64,000 bases of DNA. Origin: Calonectria ilicicola (lineage: Eukaryota; Ascomycota; Sordariomycetes; Hypocreales; Nectriaceae). The notes below the pieces were generated by a model. The model had not been told where the DNA came from and did not search any database. It saw only the letters and a list, made by a program, of their open reading frames with translations. Position numbers and translations under genes: made by a program. Location: positions 3,410,001 through 3,474,000 of the forward strand of contig CP085832.1 of NCBI GenBank assembly GCA_020809705.1, read 5' to 3'. Each line of letters opens with the position of its first letter. Positions within the stretch are counted from its first letter, which is position 1. This document shows, piece by piece, positions 524 through 58,417 of this stretch.

Positions 524-981
524 ATGAAGATACCCTTCGAAAACCAAAAGACTTTCAACTTTGAGATTCTTGACGAGAACGGCTTTAAAAATGACAGGAC
601 CTCGGGTCATGGCTTTGTCGATGCGCTGAAGAACAATGCTTCTACCCTATTGAATGGAAAGGATTTTATCTGCCAAGCAATCAACGACTTCCTTGACGCA
701 ACCGGCAGATTCACTCATCCCGCTACCGGCGAGTTCAACCTTATGGACCCGATTTTCAACCGAAGGGTCTTGGTTACAGCAAAGTACAAGACGTGAGTCA
801 ATCTCGAATTTGTTGTATTCTTAAAGATGCTAATTCCATTTGCAGGCCACAAAAAGGAGTTTTGCAGTTCGAAATGCCAGTTGTCGGAGATGAGGTCCAA
901 CGAAGAGACCCCAATGAACCTGGCAACTTTTTCAACGCTAGTGGCGATGCTGAGGCGAAATTAGAAGAGAAGGGCAAGTAG
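524..981 (+). CDS. Unrecognised small protein, two exons, 5' end uncertain
   Basis: Exons at 524-792 and 846-981 join in frame across a 53-bp intron (donor GTGAGT, acceptor TGCAG). They give 134 residues if the ATG at 524 is used. The frame remains open upstream to a possible acceptor at 487, so the true start may lie in an earlier exon. The product is soluble, with no signal peptide or membrane helix, and ends in a charged tail (EAKLEEKGK). I do not recognise the family. The clean splice and the intron stop codon that it removes argue that this is a real gene and not a chance frame. Confidence 0.45.
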
Positions 982-1362
982 TAGAATAATTTATGTGAGC
1001 ATTCTGGCCCTATGGTAGGACTACGGTATGGTTATAGTAGAGCTATGGCGAAGTAATACAATTACAGTTTATCACAAACTCTACCCAATGTACCATGACC
1101 AACACTGTCCCAATTAAACGCGTCACTTTACCAACTATTATTTCCAACAGGTCCTTTCAAATGGAGGGCTGACTCAAATGTCTCCCTTGTCTGGGCTTCT
1201 GCTGCCTTCATTTCTCCGCGTCCCGCTTACTCTCACATTGAATAGGTCGGTTTTCTTCTCGACGTGTGCTTTGACTTTAGGGTGATTAAAGATGGAGGAC
1301 TTGGGTGGAACAAGTTGCTCATCAACAAACCTGACCTGTTTATTTCGTCGCATAGGAGATGG
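982..1362. other. Spacer
   Basis: Converging 3' flanks of the small plus-strand gene and the minus-strand repeat protein. No gene or RNA was seen. Confidence 0.5.
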
Positions 1363-2131
1363 TTAAGGGGTGTTCTTTTTGATTGGATCAGCTGTCGGGA
1401 CAGAGTTCGACTCCGGTTTGGCAAACCATTCTCCAAACCTCTGGTTTGGCTTGCGGGTGAGGGAACGATCAATAAGCCATCGCTTTTGGCTGAGCGGAAC
1501 ATCAGAGTCCGAGTCGATTTCAGAAGATACTATGACATCAGATGTTGAGTTTGGCATAGAGACAGAAGAACGGGCCATGGGATGTCTCTTTTGACGAAGA
1601 GGAACGTCAGAATCAGAATCGCTCACGGAATAAGTGCTAGTATCATGCGCTGGGCTCGAGATGGCGAAAGAAGACTGGGCCATTGGCCATCTCGTCTGAC
1701 TAAGTGGTTGATCAGAGTCTGAATCGTTTGTGGATGGTTCTTGGATGTCCTCAATCGGCTGGTCCAAGTACTGTGGGCGCTTCTCCGTTTCACACAATAC
1801 TCGAGAAGGCGAATCATGGCCTATTGTGGATTTTGGTGCATGAGAACTGATGGTTGCAGCTAGCGGAAAGGCCCGTGGGTTGTTGTTTTTAATTTTCGGT
1901 CGCGTCATGTTCGCTGAATGTTGGCGCAGGAGAGAGTATTGTGTATGAGTAGATAATGGCGGTTAGACTAACCAAAAGAGCTGCTTCAAAGCCCACAAGT
2001 ATTAACAAGAACATGTTGCGGTCGAGCTTTGAGGCGAAGTAGCGAAGAAGAGAAAATGGCAGGGCTAATCTTGCTAAGACTATAATGATATGGTATGAAT
2101 GTATGAGCTGTTTGTTCACTGTTTCCCACAT
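1363..2131 (-). CDS. Putative membrane protein with three acidic DSDSD repeats
   Basis: The clearest part is 1363-1908, an ATG frame of 181 codons. It carries three spaced copies of a motif of the form DSDSD-x-PL-x-Q-x-R-x-(P/I)-(M/D), roughly 35 residues apart. Upstream, 1889-2131 holds an 80-codon ATG frame with two hydrophobic segments. The two frames can be joined in frame by a 55-bp intron (1914-1968, donor GTCTAA, acceptor TTCAG), giving exons 1969-2131 and 1363-1913 and a 237-residue protein with an N-terminal membrane region and a repeated acidic/basic tail. The donor is not a strong consensus, although a GTCTGT donor occurs in the neighbouring ankyrin gene. If the splice is wrong, the start is the ATG at 1908. 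Short Ser-Asp acidic runs followed by 'PL' and basic residues occur in chromatin-associated proteins, but no function can be assigned. Confidence 0.4.
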
Positions 2132-2510
2132 AGAAACGGATCTCCTGACAGTGATTCACAGTCAAAACACAGTTCATGTTCTTTTATTTATATGTCAATC
2201 AACATATCCGACAGTGAAAGACGGAGGATAGCAGCCCAAACTCTCAAAGGGAAAGCCTGATGAGTAGCTGGTCTATGTTAGTGAGTTTAAGAGGAGACAT
2301 TCCGTTGGCGAATATTTGTTTACTTGGCACACTTGCATAATAGAACAAACGCGGCAATAGTTCCAACTGAGTCATTCCGTGCTCGTATTTTCCGACACAA
2401 TTCATTATTTGTTTATATGAGACTAACAACACTTTTGGACACTTGAATCTGGAACAATTAAGCGCTCTATATTGACGATTTCCCACCATCACTGGAACTC
2501 GCATTCATAT
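2132..2510. other. Spacer
   Basis: AT-rich sequence between two minus-strand genes. It should hold the promoter of the acidic-repeat gene and the 3' flank of the ankyrin gene. Nothing else was seen. Confidence 0.4.
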
Positions 2511-5500
2511 TTATATCTCCCACCCTATGTCAACCATACAGTCTTCGTTTCCATCAATTCCGCCCAGATGCAAACCGCAGTTTCTTTGGTGCTCTTCCAG
2601 AAGGTCCGAAATATGCAGATGATAATTTTCTTTGGCAAGTTCAATAGCCCTGCAAAAAGCAGTCTCTCGATCTGGCTGAGCGCCTTCGTTCAGAAGAAGT
2701 CGTACAATGTCTTCTCTTCCGTGCTCGGCTGCTCCTTCGACAGCAGTTCTGCCTTCTTCGGCTGCTGCGTCCGCGCTAATGTCAGCCCCATGCTCGAGAA
2801 GCAACCTGACGAGTTGAATGCTGCCTGTGATGGAAGCCCCCTGTAACGCTGTGACGCCTCCGATTTTCGCGGGCGCAGCGTTGACTTTGGCGTTCTTGTT
2901 TAGTATTAACTTGGCAAAATTGATGTTAGGTTGTGGATTTGAACAAACTGCTTGCAGAGTGGTGCGACCGTAGCATTCAGCTGGGGCGGCATGTACGTCT
3001 GCGTTATGTTGAAGCACAAGCTCAACAGCCTTGATCTGGGTATCGAAGGAGCGGCCATAATCATGTCGCAGACCAAAAAGATCTTCTGCTAGTGCAGCCT
3101 GAAGAGCAGTGAATCCACGGTTGGAACTGGCAGGTGCATTCACGGCCGCACCGTGCTGGATGAGGAGCTGCATTGCTTCTAAATTCAAGGCGTTAGAAGC
3201 TACCTGCAAAGCAGTCATTGAACATTCAACTTCTTCATATTCAACCTCCTCATATTCAACCTTCTTATAATATTCGATAGCAATTATTTCATATCGGTCA
3301 TCGACTTTGGTGCCTGCTCCAAGTGCCAGCTTCAAGCACTCGTTACTTGGTGCAAGGACAAGCCAGTGAAGAAGGCTGCCACTGCCGCCGTCTGCGCGAT
3401 TCAGTGGGGCTCCATGTGCGATCAATTTTTTGAAACTGGCCACAAATATCCTCAGTAGACGTTCCAGATCGTCCCCAGAATACATTTGAGATCTGATGTC
3501 TGCCATATGTTTGGCTGCGGCCTCCAAGACAGTGAGTCCATTCTTCTTTGCAGGTGCTGCCTGAATGTCGGCACCGGCCTCGTCGAGTAGAAAGTCAATT
3601 GCTTCGAGGGAACCGTCTTCAGCTGCAGCCTGGAGGGCAGTGCGTCCCCCAGAATCGTGGGCGGGGAGGTTGACGTCGGCTCCACTGTCAATGAGAAATT
3701 GCAACTGAGGGAGGTACCCGTGCACGTCTCGGGTTTGAATGGCGGCTCTCCGCGACACTGGGTCATATTCGTTTAATGGGCATCCTGCATCCACCAATAT
3801 GCTCAAGTCGTACAATTTGACATCAAATGAGTATTCCCTGAAATATAATCCAAGAAGAGAAACACCAATATCTGACATGTCATGTCTCGCTTGCGCTAAT
3901 GCCATGAAGTTATCCCTTCCCCAGTCACTATCATCCTTAGGCCAATGTCTGAGCCGCGCCCCACCCTTGACCAGCAGAAAGACCATGTCATTCCCAAAAC
4001 TGTCGGGCATGGCCAGTTCTAAAGGATGGATGCATCCACGGCCCTGGCTGGTGCAATAATTCTCAGCGTTGGCATCCACCCCACGGCGCAGCAGAGTTCG
4101 GACGGCTGATTCCCTTCTCCATTTTACCGCATGCCACAAGGCTTTCTCGAGTGCCACACCCTGGGCCATGTCTTCTTTGTTGATCATGTACTCTGCCAGC
4201 CCTCGGTTACCTCTCTCCGCTGCTTCCACTAGCAACCAAGTCGTAGATTCTTCGTCATGTACCAAGTGCGACTGGAGCAACTCATACATCTCTAGTGATT
4301 TTCTTTTCGCATACTCAAGCATGCTCTCCCCTCTGATCTCGTACTCGACCTTCACGGTAATCCCTGCCTCGATCAAAATCGCAACCTTGTCGATTCTACA
4401 ATCTCGTACTGCTCTCTCCAAAGCACCTCGACCAACGTTAGAAATTGACTCGCCAGCTTGTAAACTGACACGATGACTCGCACCAGCGATGAACCTAAGC
4501 ATATCCAAGTCTGTGTCCGAGGCTGCGGTGTTCAGAAGCGAATCGTAGGTATCCAAGTCCAGTTGTGCACCAGCTTCAATTAAAAGTCGGCTCGCATCAA
4601 TCGGTATTCTCTCTCTTATTTGGTTCAAGATATCCCTGCCCAATGGACCCGAGAGAAGCCTTTTGTCTATGACAGACAGCAACTCACAGGAGAACCAACC
4701 CCATAGACTATCGCCATTGTCGTGTACCGGGGGATTTCTGCTGCCATTGAGTCTTAGCGCCTGTAAAACTTTTGACTGTAGCGGGATTGTGTTGTTTCTT
4801 TTCCGTAAATATTTGGCAAAATGACTTATAAATCCGTTGTCAGCGCCTGAAATAAGAAACCTCTCAACATCATAATGGTTGATTAAGTCATTGGCGGCCA
4901 AATAAGTCAAGATTGCAAAAGCTAGTTGCAGTGACTTCTCGTCAATCCTTTCGGAGTCCAACTGGCTGCGGCGACCTTGTTCACTTGCACGTAGAATCTG
5001 TTCGACTTGGCCCGCAACCTGATGCAACACTTCCAGTTTTTGACCAGCAGCAATCAATTGGGAAGTAAGCCACCCATCTTCTCCCTTTGAGGGTTGACGA
5101 TGAATCTCTATCGAGTGGGAATTTCGGAGCTCACTATTTTGGAAAACAGGGGCTCGTGGACAAACATGAGGTAAATTACTAGTAATGCCTAGATGTTTCT
5201 TAGAATCGTCCTAATATCATTAAGAACACGGTCAACAACATACCTTCACAGTCCCAAAATAGAGGGTATGATGGCCTTTTCGGCCACAAAAAGTCAAAAT
5301 TCAACGGTGAAGCAATCGAAACAAGATTTGGGATTTCATGTGAGGTCAACCATTGGTCCTGCTCCCATAACAGATTGCTCGGGTTTGATCCGATATCAAC
5401 TTCCCCCAAAATTACTGATGGTGACATTAGGAAAGATGTGTTGTACAAGTTGCACCTTGGACTTGGTAAAGCTTCAAAAGTGTCAGGAAGTCGACTTGGC

Positions 5501-8308: not shown

Positions 8309-11300
8309 TTAATGAATAACAGCCTCGGCCGTCTGCAGACCAGCTACAGCAAGATTAGCAGCTGTCATGATGCCGATGGCAACCTGCTTGGTCACCTCCT
8401 CCGGGTCGTTGACAGCTACAGAGTACGACACCCTCGAGACGTAGCTCGTTACGTTCGACACCTCACCCACAATGGCCGCCGATCGAACCACGTCTGCGCC
8501 GTATTTTCCGAGCTCACAGAAGTGCTCAATGGTAACGCAGAGCGCCGGGATGACCAAGACGACATTGACGACTGATCCTGTGGCTCGGCCGTCATCAGGT
8601 GTTAGGAAGCTCATTTTACTACTGGCCTTGAACCGATTCTGAACGGGCCCGCTAAAGATGACCTTGGCCAGGATAGTGGCTGCGCTGGTTATCTCAGACA
8701 GAATCTTGAAGCCCTCGTTCTGGATCGGATCTTTAGGCAGGGCCATGTCTGCGATCGCTCCAGAAGCTGCACCGATAACGCCAATGACCGCAGAGGGGAT
8801 GCCCCACGGATTTTCGTCGTTGGGAAGTTCAGCTTCAAAGCCTGAGACGAAGACGGACATGAGACTCATAAAGCCCGCAATTGAGTGTCCTGCCACATAC
8901 AGAGTTTTAGCAACCCCATCAGATATTGGGATAATGCTAGATGACGGTGCCTTGGGAACAGTCAGCAGCTCCGCATCTGGTCTCTCTGACAGAAGGGCCG
9001 CTAAGGGTGCCGCGGCAAACGCATGCATAACCGATGCCTCTTCCCTCAAGGCAGAGGGAGGCGGAGGTGGCTGGCTACCAAGCAGCGATTGGAGAGTTTC
9101 CCAACTGTCAGCATTTATGAGAGATTGAACCTCGGCGTTGTCAGGGAATGGAGCCTTGTCTTCAGCTATCTTATAGATGACCGTATAAGCAACAGCAGGA
9201 ACCCAGCAAAGAAGATCAAGGAATGAGATGTCCGGGATGCCAATGGCATTTAAAATATCAGAGATGATTGGAATGTGGATCTTTGTGTCCAAGAGGCCCA
9301 GAGCCGTCTGAGCAAGGTCCACGAGAATATTGAAGATGGTATCAGCAACGACTTCGATGCTGGAAAGTAATCCATCGGCGAATATGGCGACCAACTTCTG
9401 CAGTATTTGACCAACACTGAGGCTAGCAAAATCCTTTGCAAGGTTTTTGAGCTGGGAGTAGACAGCCGAGAGCACCTCTCCCTCCTGTTCGAGAGCACTG
9501 AGGAGGTCATCGATGATCTGTTGCGTTGGATCCAGGTCTGGAGTCGTTCCTTTAACTGCCAAGTTAGACCCGTGGTTCTTGTAGTGATTCGACAGCATTT
9601 GCGATCCCGAAGTGTGTCCTGCCGTTGGATCTGATGCTTTTGCGCTCACAGGCTGTGCCGCCACTTGTCCGATCGATGTTGACCAGTCCGTGATGCCCGC
9701 CCACTCGTTGATGCTGACCTCCAGATTCGTAATCTGCTCGTTAAACAATTGCTTGCCCGTCTGGATATCCCCTATTCTGCCCTGCAACCACTGTTTCGTC
9801 AGGTTGTGCAGCACCTCCTTGGTTCGCTTGACATCATCCCAGTCAAAGAGGAACTCCAAAAAGTGGATGACATCTTCGACAGCCGTTTTGATGGCCTTGA
9901 ATACCATCTGCACCGCAGCGACCACGGCGTCAACCGTCTTCAGGACAGCCCGGTAGACCTTGCCTGCAATAGTGACTAGGAAAGACCAGGTAGCCTCTGC
10001 AGCATCCTTGACCACTTCGACTAAGAACTCAATACCGGATTCAACCCAGTTCAAAACATCGCCAAGTGCAACGGCGATTTCGTGTCCTACGCTCCTGAAA
10101 GCAGGCGATGCATGGAACATATTCCGAGGAACATGCGTGGCCGAAACTCCGGGAGTGGCTAACAGAGCATGAGCGGCAGGTAGATTATGAGCCGGTGTCG
10201 AGTTCACGGATCCATACACAGCGTTGAGCTGGTCCATGCTCTTTGCAGCAGCCGTGGCGTCGTCTGATGAAGTTGACGATGCCACAAGGGGAGCTGAGGC
10301 AGGGGTACCGAGGGTTCCGCCTGCAACCGTGTTGGTAGGGAATTGGGCACCACGCAAAGATTTCTCTGTGTTAAGGGCAGCCATGGTTTTGAATGACTTG
10401 TCCATAGGGTTAATGGTTGTAAATGTTGCCCCGTGATCACATGATACCCTCAAAATGGTACCATTGATGCTCTTATGCACAGGCTCAATGACTGTAACGG
10501 TTCCCGTCGCATCTGTAGTCACACTGATTTGTGCCGGGCTAAGGACGTAGTACAGCCCATTGATATAGGCAGGCGCTCTAGAGGCTGCAGTTACTATCAC
10601 TTCAGCACCGCTTGCTGGCAAATTTTGACCGTCAAGAAGCTGGATGGTGGTTGTATAGGAATTAAAGGATAGTGACTTCTCTGTGGGCGGGGACTCGAGC
10701 TTGATTTCGTCGGCGCGCCAAATCTTTGCATCGGTATCAGTGGCTTGTATCAATCTCCTCAGTTTGTTGCCGCCACTCGCAAAAATGGTATTGCCACCAT
10801 CCGTCCGATTGATGTAGGGGGACATCTGCTCGATGCCAGTCAAGATGGGCAGAGGTGCACTCCAAGATCCAGGGTCGGAGAGTTGGGTGCTGTGGCATGA
10901 GACGTAGTAGACCTGATCGCTACCATTCTTACCCCAGATGGTTGTCAAGCCATCATGGGTCATGGATGATAGCTTTGTGGTGCCAGACAAGAGGTCATCA
11001 GTCAGCAAAGCGGTGCCCACAGCCCCATCCTCCTGTTTTTCTGCAGCAAAGCGATACAGTGTAGACCCGCCGATTGCGTACAAGTCGGTTGTTCCATAAA
11101 GCTTTGAGGAGGGAGCAGCATCGACATTGCGAGCACTGGTGATGGCCGATGCCTGAGCACCATCGGGCAAGCTGAAACGAGAGGGTGTCGGGGGGCCGCC
11201 GAATGGATTCATGACTGGAACATAGACAAGCTGCGCTGATGCACCGGAAGTTCCTGAAGTATAAACGCCGTCCACGAATTGACCAGGAATTCTGCCCACA

Positions 11301-12055
11301 CAACTCTGATAGTTGCCATCCTCAATATCCACTGGAACATTGTGTTGGCTCCATTTCCCTGATGGCTTCGAAGGGTCGATAAAATAACGGGCAATGTCCT
11401 TCTTGGCGTTTGTGGTTGATCGATCTATGTCAACCATGATGTATTGCTTCTTGTTCTTTGTCTCGGCGAACATGATGCCTACAATGGTGACCAGCGGCTT
11501 AGTTGTGCCACTAACTGGGGCATCGTAAGGAACAGACACCCAGCTCGGCTTTGTAGTCCAAGATACGTCGGAGCTCGAATTGGACAGAGAGAGGAAGAGG
11601 TGGTCTGACCCGCCCGAAGATACCGCCACTGCCATTCCAATCGTGCCGTCCACAGCACTCTGGCCCACGTCAAACGTGCGCAGCACAGCCTTTTTATCAT
11701 TGGCGAAGTTGGAAGCGAGGAGGTCAGTTGAAAGATCTCTTGATTCCCAGCCGGTAGTTCGTGCTCCACTCTGCTCTTCTATGACTGTGAATACGTTATC
11801 AGTACTCATCTGGAAGAGTAAAGAGTGGCCATCATCCGTTTGCAGAGCCTCGAACTTGGCCGTGGGAGAGACTACCTCTCCTTGCACATAATTCTGAATC
11901 ATGTCCGAGGTGTGACTGAGCGTTACAGGTGCTGGAGCCGCTTCTGGTACCATTTCATTCAACATGACGAGAGGAGCAGCCATCCGGGGCTGAGCCCTCA
12001 GAATCTCGCGCCGCTCGTCCTCCGAGAGATCGATCGACACGGTGTGGTCGGCTAG
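8309..12055 (-). CDS. Readthrough extension (large beta-rich and amphipathic-helical module)
   Basis: This frame is in the same phase as the upstream P47-like frame and is separated from it only by the TGA at 12058-12056. It runs 1,248 codons to a stop at 8311-8309 without an intron. The first ATG lies at 11983, but the 24 codons before it are GC3-rich and coding-like (DLSEDERREILRAQ), which argues that translation enters from upstream. Roughly residues 40-480 are rich in repeating beta-strand phrases (TDLYAIGGSTLYRF, GLTTIWGKNGSDQVYYVSC) reminiscent of a beta-propeller. About 490-570 resembles an Ig-like or carboxypeptidase-regulatory fold. About 640-780 is a long run of amphipathic helices (VLNWVESGIEFLVEVV). 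The C-terminal third contains hydrophobic helices (AVIGVIGAASGAIADMAL). I know no characterised homologue. The alternative is a separate gene starting at 11983 or a pseudogenised fusion. Confidence 0.6.
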   Translation of the reverse strand, partial: LADHTVSIDLSEDERREILRAQPRMAAPLVMLNEMVPEAAPAPVTLSHTSDMIQNYVQGEVVSPTAKFEALQTDDGHSLLFQMSTDNVFTVIEEQSGARTTGWESRDLSTDLLASNFANDKKAVLRTFDVGQSAVDGTIGMAVAVSSGGSDHLFLSLSNSSSDVSWTTKPSWVSVPYDAPVSGTTKPLVTIVGIMFAETKNKKQYIMVDIDRSTTNAKKDIARYFIDPSKPSGKWSQHNVPVDIEDGNYQSCVGRIPGQFVDGVYTSGTSGASAQLVYVPVMNPFGGPPTPSRFSLPDGAQASAITSARNVDAAPSSKLYGTTDLYAIGGSTLYRFAAEKQEDGAVGTALLTDDLLSGTTKLSSMTHDGLTTIWGKNGSDQVYYVSCHSTQLSDPGSWSAPLPILTGIEQMSPYINRTDGGNTIFASGGNKLRRLIQATDTDAKIWRADEIKLESPPTEKSLSFNSYTTTIQLLDGQNLPASGAEVIVTAASRAPAYINGLYYVLSPAQISVTTDATGTVTVIEPVHKSINGTILRVSCDHGATFTTINPMDKSFKTMAALNTEKSLRGAQFPTNTVAGGTLGTPASAPLVASSTSSDDATAAAKSMDQLNAVYGSVNSTPAHNLPAAHALLATPGVSATHVPRNMFHASPAFRSVGHEIAVALGDVLNWVESGIEFLVEVVKDAAEATWSFLVTIAGKVYRAVLKTVDAVVAAVQMVFKAIKTAVEDVIHFLEFLFDWDDVKRTKEVLHNLTKQWLQGRIGDIQTGKQLFNEQITNLEVSINEWAGITDWSTSIGQVAAQPVSAKASDPTAGHTSGSQMLSNHYKNHGSNLAVKGTTPDLDPTQQIIDDLLSALEQEGEVLSAVYSQLKNLAKDFASLSVGQILQKLVAIFADGLLSSIEVVADTIFNILVDLAQTALGLLDTKIHIPIISDILNAIGIPDISFLDLLCWVPAVAYTVIYKIAEDKAPFPDNAEVQSLINADSWETLQSLLGSQPPPPPSALREEASVMHAFAAAPLAALLSERPDAELLTVPKAPSSSIIPISDGVAKTLYVAGHSIAGFMSLMSVFVSGFEAELPNDENPWGIPSAVIGVIGAASGAIADMALPKDPIQNEGFKILSEITSAATILAKVIFSGPVQNRFKASSKMSFLTPDDGRATGSVVNVVLVIPALCVTIEHFCELGKYGADVVRSAAIVGEVSNVTSYVSRVSYSVAVNDPEEVTKQVAIGIMTAANLAVAGLQTAEAVIH

Positions 12056-12058
12056 TCA
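12053..12058 (-). promoter_or_regulatory. Candidate stop-codon readthrough site, UGA CUA G
   Basis: The minus strand reads AGT TGA CTA GCC. UGA followed by CUA (and here G) is the established high-readthrough context described for fungal and animal genes. A small imperfect stem (ATCTCTCG at 12030-12023 with CGCGAGAT at 12010-12003, one mismatch, 12-nt loop) follows about 25 nt downstream. Confidence 0.55.
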
Positions 12059-13984
12059 ACTGGAAGGTTTGGCATGATTTGGGTTTGCGTAGACGATGTC
12101 GCAGATCAAATCCTGGTAGTCGGAGAAAGTGGCAGAGGTAAAAGCGAAGACATTTGCGCCGGGGAACACAAAGCTCTGCAGTTTGCTAAAGTCGATGGAG
12201 CTCAGCTCGGGGGACACAAGACCCTTGATCCCCTTCTTGATATCACCAGTGATATCGTTCACGTTTGTGAATAGGTTGGTGAGCCAGTCCTTATCAGGGC
12301 TCTCGGAATTGTCTTTCTCCTCATGCTTGTCGGGGTTGCTGGTTATTTGCAAAGCACCATTTTGGTCGACGGAGACGTCATACACATCGGTAATGTTCAC
12401 GTCGTATCCGTTGATGCCCTCGCCGGTGGCATCGAACTTGTACCAGATATACACCCACAAACGCTGCTTGATGGTGATAGAACTACCTTCCAAGCTCACT
12501 GTGCAAGTATAGTGTGGTTGAATCTTCAGGTAGTGATAGGCTGCAAGGTAACTGTCTTCAGATGACGTGCCCTTGTCGTTTTCAGAAGTCCACTCGATGT
12601 TGATCACCTCGGAGCCCTTGTCCCCATCTGTCACTTTGCTAGTTTGAGGAGTTTCGCCATATGTCAGGGTATAGTTCCACTTCATGCTTCCAACTCCGTC
12701 AGTTGCATGGACGTGTGTATCTGAGGTAATGCAGGCGTTCTGAGCGTGGGGCGTAATAGCGTCTAGCAGGTACTGGCTGAAGGCTTGCCTATTGATTGCC
12801 ATAACACCGCTCTTGTTGGTGACCTCGCTTGGTTGAACCCAGTTCCATGTAAACTCACTAGCACCTGCAAATTTATGGCCCTTGATCATACAAAGGTAAT
12901 CAAGCGTAGTGACGGCAGTACTGTTTGCGACGACCTCACCCTTTGAATCCCTGAACGGGCTAACTTCTCGCTCAAACGACGTCATTTGAAGCTGGGAGCC
13001 GTCGGGGTCTTGGACTACAGCAGTGATGCCCAAAATGGGCTCTCCATGCAGTTTTGCAGATTTGGACCACCCATTGACAAAAAACTCAGTTAAGACAGCC
13101 TGAACCTCTTGTGGAACATCCTTGAACGTGGGCATGCTTTGCATGGTAGCATTTTCCAAATCGAGCAGCAGTTGCTGCAGACTGAAAGCAGTATCGGACA
13201 AATTCTCAAGCTGGGCTAAGATGGCGTTCTTCTTGTCCGGGTTGTTCTTGAAATAATCCGAATTTTCCAGCTTAGAGTCCAGGTCCGCAACAAGAAGATC
13301 CACAGTCGTTGTGACGTACCATGGCTCTGGCCCAGACTGGTCCCAGACTGTCCAAACCCCGCCATGGTACTCGTCACCAGGCTTGTAATGAGCGACTTGA
13401 AATTCAGAGCACAGCATGTTGAAAGTCACATTGTTGGCGCTATTCCCGAAGTCCACAACTGGGGGGAGGGCGGTGGGATCGACGTCCGAGGGTATGCCAA
13501 GGCGCATCTTGAATCCGGTGAGAAAACGCGGCTTCTTGATTGCGACAATCCTCTCATCAGTTGGTGGAGTCCCGGATGGGATAGAAAAAGGGTCGACTCC
13601 GCCTGTCAATTTGAGAAGATCATCAAGACTGATAGGGTCCTTGGGTTCCCCGGTCTCTGGGTCCTAAATGAGTTCGATCAGCAACGCACTCCAAGTAAGT
13701 TGTGTTCATAATACAAGCTAGGAGAGAATAGTAGATGCACATCTCTCCATGTTGGAGATGCTAAACAGATTAAGGTTTTCTTTCGTCGCGGGAGAAAGTT
13801 TTGGAATCAGGGACAAAGGATTCAGCTAGTCACATACCGCGCAGAAGCACAAGCAGGTAGACGGGATCTGATCTGACCCGCTCAGATATTCCATCAAGCT
13901 AGAATTGATACTGGCTTGCGTAGTTGACACCACAAAGTCATATCCATACTTGCTAGATGCCAAATTGGACTTTGCTGCGTCCAT
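12056..13984 (-). CDS. P47/TULIP-like protein (tentative), 584 aa to an in-frame UGA
   Basis: Exon 1 at 13984-13838 (49 codons) joins exon 2 at 13663-12056 across a 174-bp intron (donor GTATGT, acceptor TTTAG). The N-terminus (SKYGYDFVVSTTQASIN, about residues 11-27) and the C-terminus (FVFPGANVFAF and then SDYQDLICDIVYANP) match a family I remember from bacterial and fungal genomes. These segments resemble the N-terminal YGWD-type and C-terminal FPG elements of P47-type TULIP proteins, which have lipid-binding folds. The middle, near FSLQQLLLDLENATM, also fits that family. There is no signal peptide, so it is presumably cytosolic. The family call is from motif memory and needs a structure search. 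The frame continues after the UGA for another 1,248 codons (8309-12055), so this may be the short product of a readthrough gene. Confidence 0.7.
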
Positions 13985-56292: not shown

Positions 56293-58417
56293 TTAATGCT
56301 TAACAGGCCCAATAAAATGCCAAAAAATCTCACCAACTTGACTTCGTGACATATTTGTTGCCGCTTTTTCAATCAATTCAAGCGCTGACAGTGTTTCAGT
56401 CACACGGCGATTCCTTGCCAAAATCTTCTGCTTTCTGTAGCTAAACTCGACTGGCTCTGATGGATTCACACCGTTTCTCATGAGCATCTGCACTGCCTGA
56501 GAGAATCTCACAATGCTCAGGGTGGGGAAAACCCACTGATTCACCACAACTTGCTTTTCTTCCTTCTGTCTCTGTTGCATGAAATCTTCGATAAGGTAAT
56601 GTAAGCAATCAACCCGTGCATACGGCCTCCTCATCAATACTTTGACGCATTCCCAAGATTGGCTGCGCGCTGCGCAAGATACTGCTCTTTTCCAAAGTAA
56701 TGAATCCTCGGGCTTGACCTGGCTTGACAGCAATGATAACAGTTTATCGTTTCCAGACCCTGCTGCCACATGGAACGGATTTTGACTACTGATTGTGTCT
56801 GATTGAATCGGGAGCCACTGGAAATTTGTTCTGGACCCAGACTCTATCAATAATTTTACGAGGAAGAGTGCAGCAAATGGATTTGTTCTTGACCAGGAAA
56901 TAATTGCAGATGATATTGGGGAATGGAGTCGGTGAGTCCTGCTGCATTTACTACAGCCGGTGTCGCTAGTGTTTGCGCCATTTGCGACTAGAAACCTGAC
57001 AATTCTGACCTGCGTATTGACTTGATCAAAAGACTTTGGGTTTAGGGCACACAAAAGTGGCGTATAACAAGAATGCTTGTCCTCTTCTCCAGCACACTGG
57101 GGGCAGTACACAGCAGTGTGTGGCGGGTTGACATGTGCACCCGCCATAACCAATGCCCAGACCGCGTGTTCGTTACCGATCCATGCTGCGTAGGCTAATG
57201 AGGTATGATGGAACAAATGATTTTTCCGTTCCTCTGGTTGTTGTTTGGACGGCCAAGGCGTTGTCAAGTTTGGATCTACACCGCACCTTAATAACGCAAA
57301 AACACACTCAGCATTGGAATAATGTATTGCTTGACGGAGTGGTGTGTCTCTGGACCTGGAACAGAAATTCGGATCAGCTCCATTGGTGATGGTAGCAAGA
57401 AGAAACTCAGTGGTAGAGTGTTTTTGTATACTGGCGAGGGTATGATCCATTGCTACTCGTGACAGCAAGGAGAGCTTTTGCCTTCTCGTTTGACACAATT
57501 GGACCAACTCTACATCATACTGCATCAGCGGTACAATCCTCATGATTTCTTCATATAGATCCATGATGCCATTAAAGGAAGCTCGAAGTGGTTTGTTCGG
57601 AAAGAAGACATTATTGCGGGGACTGGTGACCATCGGACTTTGAGGAAACGAAAAATAGTGCTCAGCTCCCATACCAAGAGTTTGGTGTGTTGCATTATTG
57701 GCGGGGGTTACGTTCAAATTTGAGGGGCAAGGCAAAGGTTCTGATGGGTCAACGGTTGTCGCCATGTAGGTAGTCTCGGCATATGAACTTAAAAGAGACA
57801 TATCCTCAATCCAGTCTTCAACCTTCTTGTTTTTTCTGGGAGGAGCTGCTTTATGACGAATAGATTTGACTCTTGCCAAGATTTCATCGGTATTGAGCTT
57901 GACCTCTTCAACCTGAGTTCGGATTACCTCGGTGTTGTGTTTGATTTCTTGCCCAGTGGTGCTTGTCACGGGAATTAACGGCGGGATCATGATAAATAGA
58001 GCTTGGAAGAACTTACACAGATATAGTGTGTAGACCAAGACCAAGTGCTAGCTTGTAGAACTCTAGACTTTTATATAACTTGTGGACATCATCCTGACCA
58101 AATAGGGCCCATTTAGCTTTGGTCCACGTCTTGTCAAGCTCATATTTGCGGACACTTTCTTCAATTTGCTCGACTACAGATACACAGCCAGTCAGAATGG
58201 TGGCTATCTGTTGGACAAGCGCATCAGGCAGAGTGGGAGACAAGGAACGCGTGATGGGGTCCAGAATTGCGGCTAGAGCTTGCATCTCGTTTGATATTTG
58301 ATCAAGGTCCTCTAAGCAGCCCCGAAAGTCCCGCGAGAACCGAGTCAACGCCAATGACGTCCTCGCAATGCCAGTGGCAAGGGCCAAGGACGTGGCCGCG
58401 ATGGAGAGGGGATCCAT
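56293..58417 (-). CDS. Fungal STAND-type N-terminal domain fused to ankyrin repeats, 689 aa
   Basis: Exons 58417-58017 and 57961-56293 join in frame across a 55-bp intron. The start MDPLSIAATSLALATGIARTS and the following helices match the fungal N-terminal domain of STAND proteins (Helo-like/NACHT-sigma group). The next segment (TTGQEIKHNTEVIRTQVEEV) is the usual tail of that domain. A NACHT or NB-ARC domain would normally follow; none is visible (no Walker A GKS/T). Ankyrin repeats follow instead, at about residues 320-520 (NGADPNFCSRSRDTPLRQAI, RCGVDPNLTTP). STAND N-termini act in fungal non-self recognition and programmed cell death; a form without the nucleotide switch could be an accessory, a decoy or an unrelated use of the domain. 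Confidence 0.8.

Follow-up and report, generated by a model that had tools for sequence, protein, structure and literature searches.

A UGA CUA G stop between the two halves of a fused gene in Calonectria ilicicola: a plausible case of readthrough into a whole second domain

Known extensions made by readthrough of UGA CUA are short. In Ustilago maydis, CUA after UGA is enough for readthrough, a following G is favourable, and replacing UGA by UAG or UAA lowered readthrough (PubMed Central, PMC4207609). UGA CUA G is termed a high-readthrough motif in a further report (PMC12233894), and genes described with UGA CUA (G) include those of Stiebler et al. 2014, whose extensions bear a peroxisomal signal (PMC4207609), and mammalian MDH1 and LDHB. 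Here, we describe a gene on the minus strand, at 8309-13984, of a 64,000-nucleotide (nt) stretch of the Calonectria ilicicola genome (contig CP085832.1, positions 3,410,001 to 3,474,000; hereafter the window), in which two large halves, A and B, lie in one frame and are separated by a single TGA CTA G. The gene shares with the known cases both UGA CUA G and an in-frame conserved coding sequence past the stop. Unlike theirs, its extension would be 1,248 residues long, twice the base protein; in the fused family this stretch normally serves as the second domain, and the stop is unseen in the nearest open-frame relatives. Readthrough at this site is plausible, not proven; its use by the cell is the explanation that we favour, at about even chances. 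The gene is laid out as follows.

13838..13984, minus strand: exon 1 of the A half, from the ATG at 13984-13982, 49 codons; homologues start similarly.
13664..13837, minus strand: intron of 174 nt, GTATGT ... CTGAT ... ATTTAG, consensus score 8.25.
12059..13663, minus strand: exon 2, the remainder of the A half, 535 codons, with a P47-like TULIP fold seen through the relative P0129.
12056..12058, minus strand: the sole in-frame stop, TGA, followed by CTAG, read from the sequence.
11927..12082, minus strand: variable linker joining the conserved halves, from the alignment of relatives.
11981..11983, minus strand: first ATG past the stop, at which a free B protein might start, from the sequence.
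8309..12055, minus strand: the B half, a PLL-type-like beta-propeller, a short beta region and a long helical part, from homology and a model.

Exons 1 and 2 together give 584 codons for A, and B adds 1,248 sense codons in the same frame before ending at TAA (8311-8309). The stop stands in CCT TCC AGT TGA CTA GCC, with TGA CTA GCC at 12058-12050. The linker, whose bounds were chosen in this analysis, holds 51 sense codons (2.8% of 1,832) and the stop; the ATG at 11981..11983, with C at -3 and G at +4, is residue 25 of the B half and lies 72 nt past the stop. An earlier sequence-only reading had given the codon counts, the single intron, the shared frame and the stop context, and its coordinates proved exact; it also cited UGA CUA (G) as a high-readthrough motif, with fungal peroxisomal extensions among the cases, and placed after the stop a beta-rich and helical module about twice the size of the first protein. 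The N-terminal start of exon 1, ..YGYDFVVSTTQASIN, is common to many homologues. The intron was the top choice by consensus among the 15 frame-keeping options listed, and its CTGAT begins 18 nt upstream of its end. Between 14100 and 8200 on the minus strand, the other two frames contain 74 and 100 stops, while the gene's frame contains 7: one before the ATG, four within the intron, the TGA and the terminal TAA. A chance open frame is ruled out, because homologues span both halves. As a separate observation, the intron opens with GTATGTGACTAGCTG (window 13837-13823, minus strand), which places a second TGACTAG just past the donor site, so that a retained intron would soon bring translation to a stop.

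The locus is a unit of a family combining a P47-like TULIP domain, a loose linker, and a PLL-like propeller with a helical domain. The A half has a P47-like TULIP fold, taken from P0129, which shares 43% identity with the window's row in the A alignment (A2). PLL/PHL propeller lectins are seven-bladed. The propeller of the B half is nearest to the PLL type and has the PLL-type propeller fold; it resembles Photorhabdus propeller lectins of the PLL/PHL kind (e.g. 8Q82, 6T96). The helical part of B is predicted by a model of low confidence. The TULIP proteins P47 and OrfX (PDB 5WIX, 6EKT, 6EKV) have a fold like that of the A half, but identity is about 11%, the root-mean-square deviation is high, and the partner of A is a propeller-helical protein, unlike the setting of P47 and OrfX. 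The P47/OrfX family is PF06597 in Pfam (PMC7020563), and no match to it at E 1 or better was found in 22 members of the A half including window exon 2, the library's PF06597 entry being assumed. The P47/TULIP-like protein proposed from sequence alone is borne out in its fold but not by a PF06597 match. Sequence searches of Pfam, NCBIfam and PDB brought no reliable match to the window gene, neither half reaching the Pfam cut-off; the relative P0085 has a phasin match at 7.7e-06. The viral contigs searched contained no match, and the literature search returned no title on a fungal P47.

When 7,991 candidates were scored against the B half, 154 proteins matched it at E 0.001 or better; 120 of these are listed and enter the counts of fused and B-only forms. 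Both halves occur in one chain, with A upstream, in 84 of the 120, and B occurs alone in 36; the chain is 1,650-1,960 residues long in 77 of the 84 fused matches listed. Among the named sources are Dactylonectria, Ilyonectria, Neonectria, Fusarium, Colletotrichum, Xylaria, Aspergillus and Penicillium. In these relatives A and B are joined by a linker varying in length and sequence, and the window TGA falls inside it, so that both domains are left intact. Exon 2 of A was also used as a query, in a search limited by design to proteins of similar length; its 29 matches were mostly A-only, with some cut-off A-B forms. A tree of B was built from 67 of the 120 listed matches, the window and the copy on contig C3 described below (LG+G4; SH-aLRT, a likelihood-ratio measure, as the only support). 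All named fungal rows used fall on one branch with support 100. The rows nearest to the window by path are P0002, P0003 and P0004; its position among 14 rows lacks support, and the smallest well supported group to include it has 16 rows. Fungal gene models of B without A include the Aspergillus proteins P0033, P0038, P0040, P0047, P0082 and P0095, all six of which we take to belong to section Flavi, and the metagenome row P0022 clusters with two B-only Aspergillus proteins. In Fusarium proliferatum, A and B are adjacent gene models (FPRO06_13005, P0125, and FPRO06_13004, P0048) of 488 and 1,044 residues, both nearest to P0002, and may be a second split case. P0122 (A, 65% identical to P0002) terminates within the linker, where P0007 and P0009 start. 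These split models may reflect stops, introns or model choices.

Nine loci were recovered when an alignment of 15 B-only sequences was used to scan bacterial and archaeal genomes. Seven of the nine bacterial loci have A and B as separate genes on one strand, with the A match upstream; they belong to Accumulibacter, three Algoriphagus, Longimonas, Owenweeksia and Actinoplanes. The two genes show a gap of 31-75 nt or a 4-nt overlap in five of these seven; in Accumulibacter an additional open reading frame (ORF) fits between A and B, and in Actinoplanes the A frame extends on, overlapping B. No A was found at E 1e-5 in the Paraprochloron locus, and in that of Leptolyngbya B begins close to the contig end. 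Since A and B are separate adjacent genes in bacteria, the fungal gene looks like a fused version of this neighbour pair, and the change would have run from bacterial pair to fungal fusion.

Under readthrough, the fused A-B gene of this unnamed family would descend as the joined form of the bacterial pair, and its linker would have gained UGA, then CUA G, in the window lineage. Most ribosomes would halt at UGA and release A alone, and a minority would decode UGA as an amino acid and complete the A-B protein; the ratio of A to A-B would therefore be set by the stop. If the gene is transcribed, UGA CUA G should leak to some extent. A further proposal, which we put forward tentatively and rate below the use of readthrough itself, is that UGA CUA G at the domain boundary re-creates two products from a fused pair and fixes how much free P47-like lipid-binding protein is made relative to a propeller-tethered fusion with its 1,248-residue extension; the cellular relevance is the weakest step. 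The structure and homology of the gene, its two domains and their fold classes, the fused and split forms, the stop context and the open frame of B are secure; that the stop is derived and is read through is inferred. If this is true, leaky termination could dose a whole second protein, beyond short targeting tags, and would offer a fusion gene a route to regain two products. Even without readthrough, the locus links a widespread family, fused in many fungi and made by two adjacent genes in bacterial genomes; it also captures a fusion gene that is being split or is beginning to decay.

The state of B carries much of the argument. Its frame after the stop is conserved coding sequence, within the range of the 77 fused chains taken for this comparison (seven shorter chains were excluded). 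At near-invariant columns, defined as at least 95% identical among the other rows, the window departs at 4 of 118 in B (median 2, maximum 10 substitutions) and at 0 of 33 in A. The identities of B and A are 0.67 and 0.56 to P0002, 0.60 and 0.53 to P0003, and 0.59 and 0.56 to P0004; this higher identity of B indicates that it has drifted no faster than A over the whole lineage. With no further stop in 1,248 codons, few departures, and an identity above that of A, B is without signs of decay.

The genome has only one other close A-B gene, on contig C3 (C3:5548300-5557000, minus strand). This copy contains two TAG stops, one at codon 23 and one in the linker (7390 and 5381), each followed by GAA, and is otherwise open; 79 of the 83 relatives where codon 23 was found have Q at it, and the other 4 have E. 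Its B shows 9 changes and 3 gaps at the 118 columns, rank 79 of 79 counting gaps (one other row has 10 changes), and the A piece has 1 change and 5 gaps at its 33 columns, where gaps were to be expected because just part of A was used. It is likely a decaying copy. It shows what decay looks like, and the window gene is unlike it save for one stop. The idea that linker stops are functional, as both two-part genes have one, was dropped in view of the second TAG at codon 23, and the C3 copy gives no support for a functional linker stop. An A-only paralogue on C5 (C5:5849000-5857500, 977-2902, plus strand) ends with TAA, and no B match was found in the 5.6 kb fetched downstream. There are also a weak A match on C7, which tblastn did not recover, and weak matches to pieces of B at C5:1465031-1466611 and C10:1150809-1152047 (22-40% identity, in open frames of 713 and 1,097 residues); by their sequences, the latter could be far relatives.

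Several points weigh against the use of readthrough. The metagenome proteins P0003 and P0004 have residues throughout the linker, with no W there and no stop, and UGA CUA is not conserved in them. Both begin at a methionine downstream of the intron position; we infer that this start was placed by an intron-blind gene caller and that the two are direct open frames. The gene model of P0002 (Dactylonectria, marked partial, 63% identical) is likewise a fusion; its linker is shorter by about 22 residues exactly at the place of the TGA, which could conceal a predicted intron. P0002 is the closest relative among the matches listed, at which distance conservation of the stop and its context in orthologues was not found. 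From the open linkers of P0003 and P0004 and the fused model of P0002, we judge that the stop most probably arose in the window lineage. The window ranks 61 of 79 in B conservation, a place in the weaker half of the rows, and the terminal branch leading to it in the B tree has a length of 0.33, exceeding the 0.31 of P0004, 0.24 of P0003 and 0.13 of P0002. In a neutral simulation (substitutions only, 200 runs per load), B acquired no new stop in 37% of runs at 1% load, 12% at 2% and 2% at 3%; the low value at 3% counts in favour of readthrough, and the high one at 1% means that the stop may be very recent. The decay of the C3 copy, with its two TAG stops and the worst B conservation, shows that copies of this gene do decay in the genome. 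The window stop has U at -1, which accompanies lower readthrough in mammalian cells (PMC12233894). Downstream RNA structure, reported with higher readthrough though not required, was absent beyond the level of shuffles: the 116 nt that follow the stop give z -0.06, and 82 of 200 shuffles fold equally well. The context argument is post hoc, because the site was chosen for looking notable. The 9-mer TGACTAGCC is frequent in the genome (326 places versus 297 for its reversed control). An extension with twice as many residues as the base protein would also be out of the ordinary, and no title reporting domain-scale readthrough in a fungus appeared among the literature matches listed. The programmed readthrough first proposed is supported in part.

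The main rival explanation is a recent or tolerated nonsense mutation, in which B is lost in the strain or species and decay is starting, with CUA G being either chance or a change that lowers the cost. We regard this as possible, though clearly short of even chances. It agrees with the lack of a stop in the nearest open-frame relatives, P0003 and P0004, with the decaying C3 paralogue and with the C5 paralogue that is A alone; moreover, a stop younger than about 1-2% neutral divergence need not bring more stops in B. It sits less well with the context and the position of the stop: when single-base stop gains in the frame are counted with transitions double, TGA CTA arises from 1 and TGA CT from 5 of a weighted 705, and a dispensable B would take stops equally across its 1,200 other codons rather than in a linker of 2.8% of codons. 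Repeat-induced mutation was also considered as the cause of the stop and set aside; for A, B and the C3 copy alike, dinucleotide indices are close to those of the whole window.

A two-cistron gene, with B made by reinitiation at the ATG 72 nt past the stop or from its own transcript, would restore the bacterial two-protein state. The separate genes in seven of nine bacterial loci, the 36 B-only proteins among the 120 matches listed (some of them, including Aspergillus rows, within the fungal branch) and the two Fusarium proliferatum models all fit such an arrangement. C at -3 makes a poor start context, and it is what this first ATG has. Yeast can be made to reinitiate past a poorly recognised stop (PMC11952965), and a polycistronic operon of Glarea lozoyensis is reported to carry two coding frames per transcript, as reinitiation requires (PMC11677970), but a longer upstream ORF lowers reinitiation according to the same source, and A has 584 codons. 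The window gene also differs from that operon: A and B share one frame, the next ATG comes after 72 nt, and in many relatives the two halves are joined. On balance, we consider two cistrons unlikely. A spliced intron that removes the TGA and leaves a simply fused protein would fit the shorter linker of P0002 if an intron was predicted there. Yet among 63 in-frame GT/GC..AG candidates over the TGA the best scored 0.8, against 8.25 for intron 1, on a crude score built from the splice consensus, and this explanation is very improbable. In the C3 copy, the best of 109 candidates reached 5.3 with a rare GAG acceptor, so that a splice is less firmly excluded there. A base-calling or assembly error deserves mention as a single base decides the case, but the assembly has 12 contigs for 70 Mb in total and therefore looks chromosome-scale, and the remainder of the gene is open; we give an error hardly any weight.

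Pairs of open stretches joined by one stop, each of at least 400 codons, number two in a 264-kb sample made up of the window and twenty 10-kb samples of contig 1, this gene being one of them. The second consists of Ser/Thr-rich low-complexity stretches of 449 and 488 codons with one TAG between (C1:6900001-6910000, 3669, plus strand). Among ten large ORFs scanned in the window, four had no Pfam match and six had one, these being two ankyrin proteins, a transporter, two kinases and a flavin monooxygenase. The window's pyruvate dehydrogenase kinase shares 95% identity with the Ilyonectria destructans protein, which points to a probable origin in the Nectriaceae. Large ankyrin-repeat proteins flank the gene on both sides (window 2511-5057 and 56293-58044, minus strand).

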